A DNA stretch of 64,000 bases from Pocillopora verrucosa (taxonomy: Eukaryota > Cnidaria > Anthozoa > Scleractinia > Pocilloporidae): the NCBI RefSeq assembly GCF_036669915.1, contig NC_089315.1, positions 31,134,131 to 31,198,130 on the forward strand, written 5' to 3'. A program made the translations under genes and the position numbers. The notes beneath the pieces were generated by a model. That model had not been told where the DNA came from and did not search any database. It saw only the letters and a list, made by a program, of their open reading frames with translations. This document shows positions 24,901 to 42,000 of the stretch, in pieces (the stretch's first letter is position 1; every line of letters begins with the position of its first letter).

Positions 24901-24982
24901 ATGCAACGTGCGTCAGTCATTCACCATGCTTTGCTCTGTTCTTTACTGGTAATATTTTGGGATCGCGGATCCAGTCATACAG
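24901..24982 (+). CDS. Distal alternative first exon (signal peptide) of the SRCR receptor
   Basis: ATG at 24901 opens 27 codons plus one base: a short N-region MQRASVIHH, then hydrophobic [11 protein letters not shown] and a polar end DRGSSHT, followed by the donor GTGAGT at 24983. It ends in phase 1, matching the acceptor at 29292. It lies 2.5 kb upstream of the other candidate first exon, suggesting a second promoter. No transcript evidence is available. Confidence 0.6.
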
Positions 24983-39900: not shown

Positions 39901-42000
39901 CTGTGGGGCGTAAGTATTATTGATGTGTTCACTGAATTGTTCTGATGGATTTTACTCTCTTAAATGCCAGTTTTTATTCAGCCAGCAGAAGTGAACAAGT
40001 GCATCAGAGGGTAGAAATCCTTCTTTTTAAAGCTCGTTAGCGAGTACAGATTTGATATGGGCATGCGAGTGAAACGTAGCAGTAATTTCTAAGTACGCGC
40101 ATTAAGGCAACATGAGGAAGCCTGATACAACATCATTTACTCTCGATGGGTATTGTGGGAAAAACCCACTAAATACAAAGTGGCTTGCACCCTTTCATAA
40201 TCCTTTAACAGTTTTTTCAAAACCTGCTCGAAGCAGGTAGCATTCTAGTAAGTTGAATTTTTCTCTGGTCAGTAGATCCTCGCATGTATCTTTCTGAGAA
40301 CACTCACCAATAGATCGCTTAGTGTTCAACGGACTGTTTAAAAAAATATGGAGATTTAAGGTCATTTTCAATCCTTTGTAGTGACTGTCGAGTTCCAAGT
40401 CTTTCCAACAAACACTGTCGCGAAAGCAAAAGGAGAAACAGAAAATTTCGATTGTAAAGTGACTGGAGTTCCCATCCCTCAAATTGCTTGGAAGAAAGAT
40501 GGTGAATTGTTAATGAATGACAGTAAACACGCCATCACTACAGATATCTTGGTCGAAAAGAATACTGTCACAAGCAGGTTATTAATAAAGGACTTAAGCG
40601 AGGAAGACATCGGGATTTATTATTGTATATCATGGAATCGTGGCGGTATTCGTCTCACCAAGGCGAGCCTTTTGTTACCTGGTAAGTATCTTATGTTGGT
40701 GCTGGCAAAATGTATTATCTGTGACCATATGCATGTATCAAAAAGATAGAATGTACACCATTAATCTTCTTAACTCTCCCTCCCTTAAAGTGCAAGGATT
40801 ACGTAACTGAAGGTAAGGTAAGGTAAGGTTGGAGCATTTTATTAACACCCTATGATTTAAGCAAGGCCGTTCGAATTTTTGAAATTCAGTGAAGGTTGTT
40901 AATACCTGAAGGATACTTTACCGAGCTTATACCACGTACTGTTGGTTGCAACGTGAACTGTATTTTGTCTTGTGCGAATCAGTATTTTCACAAACAATTC
41001 TCGAAGCGCGCGCCGGTAATGTTATTTGCTTGGTTACTTGTTTTTTATTTTAACATTTCTGTCTTGGCATATCCTCAGGTCCACCAATTATCACTATTCC
41101 TCCAGAGGACGTTCATATTCTCTCACGAGCTAACGCTTCTTTCTTTTGTGATGGTGTGGGTTTCCCAAATCCTTCGTTAACGTGGCTCAAGGATTCTAAA
41201 CCTATTCAGCAGTCGAAGAGAGTTCTGATAACGGAGGAAAATGCACTCTGGGTACTTAGTGCTACTGTCGATGATGTTGGAATATACACCTGCGTGTATG
41301 AAAATAAGAATGGCGAAGTCAGCGCATCAGCTTCGCTTTTTGTAGATGGTATTGCACCAGGAAAACGTAAGTCTACAACTTGAGGGGTAGAATGAATTGA
41401 GTCGGGCTGGGTAGGGGTTAGATTTAAGGGTGGGAAGATAATTGAGTCGAGGTAGAGGGTGGAACTGGGCAAGTGGAAAAGATGGTATAGAATAGAATTG
41501 GCTGGGATGCGATGGAGAATGGAAGAGTAAGGTAAGGCCGCAGAGAAAAGTAAGTTGGGTTTGATTTGGGAACCGTGGACAGTGCAGATAGTGGTGACCA
41601 AAAAAAGGTTCTTGAAAAAGTTTGTTGTAGGGTCATAAGAAACTAGAAGACACTGGGTTTCTTACTTAATTTACCCAATCTTTTATCTGTTCAAACAGAA
41701 TCCGTGTCGCCGCCTTTAGCATCCAAGCGACCGATCTCGACTGGGACAATAGTGGCTATTGTGGTGATTCTGGTTGTCGTTTTTGTTGTCATTGTTGGTA
41801 TCGTGTTGTATCGCTACTGTCGAGCACGTGATCAGGCCTTCAAGTTTTCAGTGGATGATAGAAATCTGAAACCATCTCTTCGCTCACGGGTCAAAAAGGC
41901 CATAGGAAAGAACCACTCTGCCAATCTGTACTACAATCATAGCCAAGATGAAATTAATTTTGACGACAGTAGACCGTTTGCGGACCAGGACGAACTCTGA
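24901..42000 (+). CDS. Large type I membrane receptor: six SRCR domains, furin-like repeats, EGF module, four Ig domains
   Basis: Sixteen exons join in phase: first exon 27507-27606 (or 24901-24982), then 29292-29465, 29891-30156, 30691-30949, 31337-33162, 33522-33690, 33841-34557, 35087-35440, 35716-35970, 37294-37499, 37615-37738, 38755-39057, 39640-39909, 40382-40681, 41079-41366 and 41699-42000. The product is 1,970 (or 1,964) residues. Order: signal peptide; furin-like cysteine repeats (CxxC spacing, e.g. CDASCKTC) alternating with six group A-type SRCR domains (e.g. [19 protein letters not shown], six cysteines each); a thrombospondin-type EGF ([15 protein letters not shown], about 1470-1483); four Ig domains (exons from 38755 to 41366, C...W...YxC pattern); a helix at about 1886-1911 ([20 protein letters not shown]); and a tail of about 59 residues. 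SRCR proteins bind microbial and host ligands; a recognition-receptor role is inference. I know no named orthologue. Exon 38755-39057 ends at a GC donor. Confidence 0.88.
27507..27606 (+). CDS. Proximal first exon (signal peptide) of the SRCR receptor
   Basis: ATG at 27507 opens 33 codons plus one base, with hydrophobic core [16 protein letters not shown] followed by the basic segment SRSRRSPS and the donor GTAAGA at 27607. It ends in phase 1 and fits the acceptor at 29292. RSRR just after the likely signal cleavage site resembles a furin site, which the distal exon lacks. Confidence 0.65.
28780..29125. repeat. Degenerate GTCT/GTCA/GTCC tetranucleotide tract
   Basis: This intronic region before exon 29292-29465 is dominated by GTCNGTCN and CAATCA-like words with much drift, as in an old expanded microsatellite. 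It has no coding signature. Confidence 0.6.
33437..33452. repeat. Homopolymeric G16 tract
   Basis: Sixteen consecutive G residues lie in the receptor intron 33163-33521, 70 bases before the acceptor of exon 33522-33690. Length may be affected by sequencing error. Confidence 0.85.
37750..38485. repeat. Pyrimidine-rich minisatellite (about 44-bp unit) in a receptor intron
   Basis: The intron between exons 37615-37738 and 38755-39057 is filled by tandem units built from CCCTCCCCTCCATCC, CTCCCCTTATCCTTCC and ATCCCACCCTTTC blocks, about 44 bp each with shorter variants. The plus strand is almost all C and T. All three plus frames stay open for more than 780 bases (translations rich in SLPSIPPL), which is a by-product of composition, not coding. 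Confidence 0.92.
39058..39639 (+). other. GC-AG intron in the SRCR receptor
   Basis: The first Ig exon ends AAGG followed by GCAAGT at 39058; no GT donor fits the required phase 1. The acceptor is AACAG ending at 39639. GC-AG introns are a known minor class, and the match to the AG|GCAAGT consensus is close. The intron also contains a SINE insertion (39228-39481). Confidence 0.8.
39228..39481 (-). mobile_element. tRNA-headed SINE with a 16-bp target-site duplication
   Basis: The insert 39244-39465 is bracketed by the perfect direct repeat AACAGTAAACAGTTTA at 39228-39243 and 39466-39481. On the minus strand its head (39435 down to 39364) folds as a tRNA: a seven-pair acceptor stem, A-box-like TTAGCTCAGTTGGTAG and B box GGTTCAAATCC. 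The anticodon position reads GGT (threonine). Position 33 is C rather than T and the anticodon stem has a mismatch, so I read it as a SINE head, not a working tRNA gene. The body and tail run left to an ATATATGAATTTCATATAT palindrome. Confidence 0.88.

Follow-up and report, generated by a model that had tools for sequence, protein, structure and literature searches.

Receptor Gene

The window analyzed here is a 64,000-nucleotide (nt) stretch of the genome of the coral Pocillopora verrucosa (contig NC_089315.1, positions 31,134,131 to 31,198,130). It includes a 16-exon gene at 27507–42000 (+ strand; window coordinates) for a protein with SRCR, furin-like and immunoglobulin (Ig) domains, hereafter the receptor. 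The coding sequence of 5913 nt specifies 1970 amino acids (aa) in phase with 0 internal stops, and an in-frame TGA (27498-27500) is located just before the ATG at 27507. Splice sites were picked by hand from the open stretches on the + strand; 14 of the 15 introns are GT-AG and one is GC-AG. The latter is intron 12 (39058-39639), whose donor at 39057 (AGG/gcaagt) is the sole non-GT donor in the gene model. An alternative in-phase GT donor at 39030 is weaker, and the exon 12 end at 39057 continues gap-free into the coral relatives.

All 15 exon junctions match, in alignment, the coral relatives that cover them (five at junctions 1-13 and four at 14-15, as the Oculina patagonica protein P0001 ends early). 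Length differences are confined to linkers at junctions 1 and 15 and to 1-2-residue gaps near junctions 6 and 14. The uninterrupted frame and the agreement of the junctions thus bear out the single in-phase 16-exon model of an earlier sequence-only reading. That reading had the region begin at 24901, but 24901-27506 is not shown to be part of the gene: in tblastn with the receptor protein across the window, no related sequence was found outside 27400-42100. The same search rules out a tandem paralogue of the receptor in the window. The exons are as follows.

27507–27606, + strand: exon 1, start codon and hydrophobic, signal-peptide-like N-terminus (N-termini of coral relatives are similar)
29292–29465, + strand: exon 2, bulk of furin-like repeat 1
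29891–30156, + strand: exon 3, end of furin-like repeat 1 and first part of SRCR1
30691–30949, + strand: exon 4, remainder of SRCR1 and furin-like repeat 2
31337–33162, + strand: exon 5 (1826 nt), furin-like repeat 3, SRCR2 (~31558-31884), furin-like repeats 4-6, SRCR3 (~32473-32781), furin-like repeats 7-8 and start of SRCR4
33522–33690, + strand: exon 6, middle of SRCR4
33841–34557, + strand: exon 7, end of SRCR4, furin-like repeats 9-10 and first part of SRCR5
35087–35440, + strand: exon 8, end of SRCR5, furin-like repeat 11 and most of 12
35716–35970, + strand: exon 9, end of furin-like repeat 12, linker and first part of SRCR6
37294–37499, + strand: exon 10, remainder of SRCR6 and start of the seven-Cys EGF-like module
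37615–37738, + strand: exon 11, remainder of the seven-Cys EGF-like module
38755–39057, + strand: exon 12, Ig domain 1, followed by the GC-AG intron
39640–39909, + strand: exon 13, Ig domain 2 (I-set, E 7.5e-17)
40382–40681, + strand: exon 14, Ig domain 3 (I-set, E 3.7e-15)
41079–41366, + strand: exon 15, Ig domain 4 (I-set, E 6.7e-18)
41699–42000, + strand: exon 16, linker, transmembrane helix (~41734-41802, by hydrophobicity), cytoplasmic tail and stop

Domain Organization

The receptor consists of a signal peptide (recognized by eye), six SRCR domains interspersed with twelve furin-like repeats, an EGF-like module with seven Cys, four Ig domains, a transmembrane helix and a short tail. From its hydrophobic N-terminus and single transmembrane helix, the receptor is predicted to be a single-pass type I membrane protein. 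Pfam detects SRCR in six stretches (E 1.1e-160) and I-set in four (E 6.3e-59). Furin-like_2 stays under its cut-off of 28 with the receptor alone (25.8 bits, E 1.3e-5) and matches all 13 members of a family alignment (best E 1.4e-25). Profiles built from the receptor's own repeats give the string F-S-FF-S-FFF-S-FF-S-FF-S-FF-S-IIII (F, furin-like; S, SRCR; I, Ig), i.e., one furin-like repeat before SRCR1 and two or three between each pair of SRCR domains, twelve in all. The domain inventory read from the letters alone (six SRCR, about twelve furin-like repeats, four Ig, transmembrane helix and tail) is therefore recovered by Pfam and these profiles together.

The module encoded by exons 10-11 had been called a thrombospondin-type EGF. 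Its seven Cys are conserved in relatives, and the pattern resembles that type by eye; in the searches, none of the EGF models passes its cut-off (EGF_3, E 0.066), and no PDB chain matches the module by sequence. Likewise, furin-like repeats 4-6 match no PDB chain at E 0.01, and no Pfam domain is found above cut-off in the cytoplasmic tail. By sequence, the best PDB match of the receptor is CD163/M160, and its Ig part matches the Ig arrays of Robo, contactin and Dscam. For exon 5 (608 aa, 18 sequences), AlphaFold gives a model with a mean predicted local distance difference test score (pLDDT) of 81.9 and a predicted template-modelling score (pTM) of 0.50, as would be expected for a chain of domains whose relative placement is unsure. 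When the model was compared by Foldseek, the top rows were CD163 chains, with whole-chain template-modelling scores of 0.16-0.18 of the query; single SRCR domains reached 0.8-0.9 of the target. Furin-like repeat 3 (exon 5, ~aa 300-320) has about 11 residues more than its counterparts in coral relatives, all within a single exon.

Distribution of the Architecture

Relatives were sought among the best 120 of 363 matches to the whole protein, the best 120 of 216 to its C-terminal part, and the best 120 of 459 to a profile built from 13 aligned family members. The whole-protein search revealed proteins of Oculina (72% identity, 89% coverage), Montipora (64%, 100%) and Acropora palmata (53%, 96%), so that the orthologues of the same order anticipated in other anthozoans do exist, as well as deuterostome proteins of Ptychodera (41%, 95%), Branchiostoma belcheri (39%, 99%) and Strongylocentrotus (38%, 95%). 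The sponge Sycon ciliatum, with two proteins, and the octocoral Dendronephthya were found in addition by the profile search. Matches to the C-terminal part were dominated by ordinary Ig proteins.

SRCR, furin-like and Ig domains occur together in 25 of the 240 proteins fetched, so at least 25 carriers are present among the matches listed. The exact domain string of the receptor is found in 14 of these 25, from hexacorals, hemichordates, echinoderms and amphioxus; the other 11 have a different number of Ig domains or one further partial repeat, or come from models that are incomplete or disturbed. The octocoral-type proteins (P0235 and P0111) keep the SRCR/furin order and have five Ig domains. 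The Sycon proteins (P0236 and P0237) also keep this order, with three Ig domains called and, in P0236, no first furin-like repeat. One additional partial furin-like call is present in each of two urchin proteins (P0046 and P0057). The annotated P0001 lacks Ig4, the transmembrane helix and the tail, perhaps due to a truncated gene model, and P0045, P0064, P0078 and P0097 are incomplete or disturbed models. Five relatives tagged 'lgn' are frames of 1925-2016 aa on contigs of 6.4-7.5 kb which, judging from their size, would be spliced transcripts carrying both the SRCR and the Ig parts.

The combination had been regarded as unfamiliar, with no known vertebrate counterpart. No vertebrate or protostome is present among the 19 named organisms of the 25 carriers, although absence from these groups is not proven, resting as it does on the best 120 matches per search. 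The combination is not a cnidarian novelty: echinoderms, hemichordates and amphioxus have the same protein, and a sponge has a similar one. Source names of the relatives include DMBT1-like, M130/M160-like, WC1.1-like and 'Immunoglobulin super DCC subclass member 3.'

Common Descent of the Domain Order

Several observations count against the explanation preferred below. When individual SRCR domains were compared with the receptor protein alone, the best match was at the same position in only 55 of 96 cases, and the same-position domain outscored all 1845 non-family SRCR domains in just 22 of 96. A midpoint-rooted tree, in which sponge, octocoral, hexacoral and deuterostome groups are well supported, places the octocoral pair outside hexacorals plus deuterostomes (90/91) and joins crinoids with hemichordates and amphioxus (96/96), unlike accepted relationships; the tree program warns of long branches. 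In addition, corals have at least two receptor paralogue groups among the matches listed: one, comprising Acropora palmata and a single lgn sequence, lies beside that of the window protein, Oculina and Montipora. In the second coral paralogue group, P0005 and P0006 have a cytoplasmic tail unlike that of the window protein's group.

As the single-SRCR test was mixed, position profiles and block permutations were analyzed. Profiles of each domain position were compared between five hexacoral proteins (including P0003 and P0006) and 12 deuterostome proteins (including P0055, placed by the tree), with chance levels of 1/4 for Ig, 1/6 for SRCR and 1/12 for furin-like repeats. The best match was the domain's own position in 64 of 68 cases for Ig (20/20 and 44/48 in the two directions), 73 of 102 for SRCR (23/30 and 50/72) and 109 of 204 for furin-like repeats (41/60 and 68/144), where the extra partial furin-like call in two urchin proteins shifts one label. 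Exceptions are deuterostome SRCR2, which the hexacoral profile recognized in none of 12 proteins, and furin-like repeats 2.1 and 2.2, recognized in 1 of 12 each. The octocoral-type proteins matched their own positions in 8/8 (Ig), 8/12 (SRCR) and 11/24 (furin-like) cases, and the Sycon proteins in 1/6, 3/12 and 7/23, respectively.

When the five SRCR-plus-furin blocks were shuffled into all 120 orders, the native order ranked first in 13 of 13 comparisons among coral, octocoral-type, urchin, hemichordate and amphioxus proteins (one pair counted both ways), including 6 of 6 that involve the octocoral type. When the two sponge proteins were each compared with three references, the native order ranked 1, 1, 2, 4, 4 and 7 of 120. 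These comparisons show that the domain order is common by descent to hexacorals and deuterostomes, and by both position and permutation the octocoral type is assigned to the same descent. The sponge results suggest that this descent may extend to the sponge.

SRCR Cysteines and Putative Metal Sites

Six Cys are present in 124 of the 126 SRCR domains of 21 family proteins, two SRCR6 domains having four. Because group A is defined by six conserved Cys (passages of PMC10855680), the receptor is assigned on its sequence to group A of the SRCR superfamily. In SALSA/DMBT1, disruption of metal site 2 (D1019, D1020 and E1086) abolished ligand binding, as described in part of PMC7043408. Scored by alignment alone, the corresponding site-2 triad (D, D, E) is intact in hexacoral SRCR1, 3, 4, 5 and 6 (5/5 each, including the window protein), and in deuterostome SRCR1, 2 and 4 (12/12 each) and SRCR5 (11/12). 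In comparison of the window protein with the urchin protein P0046, the SRCR domains are the most conserved part (43-57 identities of 101-108 each), the Ig domains have 27-38 of 89-99 each, and the tail is the least conserved (4/48).

A calcium-binding core common to the whole family is disfavored by several of these alignments. The triad is gone from hexacoral SRCR2 (0/5) and from deuterostome SRCR3 and SRCR6 (0/12 each). In the octocoral type, SRCR2 and SRCR3 alone have it (2/2 each), and in the sponge proteins it is present in SRCR3, 4 and 5 (2/2 each); as these positions differ, SRCR1/4/5 are no universal core. Every group retains at least two putative SRCR metal sites, at positions that are not always identical. 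Also, no cytoplasmic-tail motif common to all phyla was found among the relatives compared.

Relationship to Known SRCR Proteins

CD163 and M160 (SR-I) are type I membrane proteins whose SRCR array is like that of the receptor. Their ectodomains consist of SRCR only, whereas the receptor adds to its SRCR domains twelve furin-like repeats, the EGF-like module and four Ig domains, and thus does not belong to this class. DMBT1 (SALSA, gp340) shares with the receptor many SRCR domains with a metal site, and several relatives were named after it by their sources. However, its SRCR domains have eight Cys (16/16 in the chick protein compared) and it carries CUB and ZP domains (PMC7043408, in part), whereas the receptor family has six-Cys SRCR domains, the receptor has a transmembrane helix, and neither CUB nor ZP is among the 12 Pfam families that it matches at E 0.01; membership in DMBT1 is thus rejected. 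Cnidarian proteins with SRCR, Ig and a terminal trypsin domain, described in passages of PMC5119243, resemble the receptor in having multiple SRCR and Ig domains, but the receptor has furin-like repeats, a transmembrane helix and a tail instead.

Furin-like repeats of R-spondins and growth-factor receptors resemble those of the receptor, which Furin-like_2 matches; R-spondins are not known to have SRCR or Ig domains. Among titles and abstract openings of the open literature, no paper on an SRCR-furin-Ig architecture was found, although the supplementary domain compositions of PMC10855680 could hold one. The word 'furin' is absent from the available main text of two SRCR surveys, PMC5119243 (0 occurrences) and PMC10855680. 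The view that no well-described family has the identical architecture has thus survived the literature search, and the receptor represents a distinct family within the SRCR superfamily that is undescribed as far as this search reached.

Possible Functions

The explanation considered most likely, with a probability somewhat above even, is that the receptor belongs to an old animal family without a name of its own and serves surface recognition or adhesion by multivalent binding that depends on calcium. Its six group A SRCR modules and furin-like repeats, held on a stalk of the EGF-like module and four Ig domains, would reach far from the cell surface. Putative calcium in SRCR1, SRCR4 and SRCR5 might mediate binding to a repeating, probably polyanionic or glycan-rich surface, with further putative calcium sites varying by lineage. 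Several weak contacts would add up so that particles, cells or matrix are held or taken in. As the short tail varies between phyla and shows no signaling domain, uptake or signaling would proceed through partners. The steady architecture favors a fixed, perhaps endogenous ligand, as in adhesion or debris clearance, over a fast-changing pathogen; a self or matrix ligand is thus preferred to a microbial one.

A pattern-recognition receptor, whose SRCR domains bind polymers on microbes or algal symbionts so that the cell takes up or kills the particle, is possible but clearly less probable. SALSA/DMBT1 binds and agglutinates microbes (passages of PMC7043408), the SR inhibitor fucoidan lowered symbiont colonization of Aiptasia (PMC5119243, in part), and an Acropora digitifera transcript with M160 as its best human match, whose membership in this family is not established, fell by a log FC (fold change) of -4.47 at 48 h after Chromera infection (PMC5864212, in part). 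Against this stand the fixed order inherited by descent and its presence in urchins, starfish, acorn worms and amphioxus, unlike the SRCR expansions of 296 genes in a sponge and 357 in an urchin (in the accessible text of PMC10855680); still, a conserved order alone leaves microbial ligands possible. Of the proposal that this is a surface receptor for microbes or symbionts, one receptor gene stands. Algal symbiosis was probably not the ancestral role of the receptor, given that the protein is also carried by urchins, starfish, acorn worms and lancelets, none of which is known to have algal symbionts.

A homophilic or matrix adhesion molecule, in which Ig and SRCR arrays of neighboring cells meet without scavenging, seems unlikely. 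The fixed architecture and the similarity of the Ig part to Robo, contactin and Dscam would suit adhesion, but I-set matches to adhesion and guidance proteins are generic, and conservation is higher in the SRCR domains than in the Ig domains. Far less credible still is that the SRCR and Ig halves are two adjacent genes wrongly joined, as might be suspected from the 1016-nt intron with a C-rich tandem repeat between exon 11 and the Ig-encoding exon 12. The phase is kept across this boundary, junction 11 is continuous in 5 of 5 coral proteins compared, and each of the 25 relatives combines SRCR, furin-like and Ig domains in one protein, five of these proteins lying on contigs the size of a transcript; the domain strings and junction alignment lead us to reject the joining.

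Going beyond the preferred explanation of a calcium-dependent recognition or adhesion receptor, a more speculative scenario, which we regard as rather doubtful, is that the receptor ranks among the most ancient fixed multidomain receptors of animals. In that case the ectodomain of ~22 SRCR, furin-like and Ig modules would have been assembled before the split of sponges, cnidarians and deuterostomes, kept module for module wherever it survived, and lost in vertebrates and protostomes, and it would recognize a self surface or matrix in an undescribed, invariant way that depends on calcium.

Other Features of the Window

The tandem array in intron 11 extends over 37760-38530 in 43-bp and related units. 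It creates long, apparently spurious reading frames, which reach 320 aa on the + strand. Upstream of the receptor gene, a 281-aa reading frame at 21872-22714 (- strand) matches Cation_efflux (PF01545, E 1e-7); it may encode a TMEM163-like protein.

Implications

Most discussion of SRCR genes in invertebrates treats them as immune families that expand. The receptor represents the opposite, a steady design: a long, irregular chain of modules that recurs in corals, starfish, urchins, acorn worms and lancelets, and possibly also in a sponge. It has been hidden behind automatic names derived from human DMBT1 and CD163 that do not fit, and changes in the expression of 'M160-like' genes in corals should therefore not be read as CD163 biology. 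The family offers a testable receptor for what early scavenger-type receptors of animals recognized, in which sea urchin, amphioxus and sea anemones are open to experiment.
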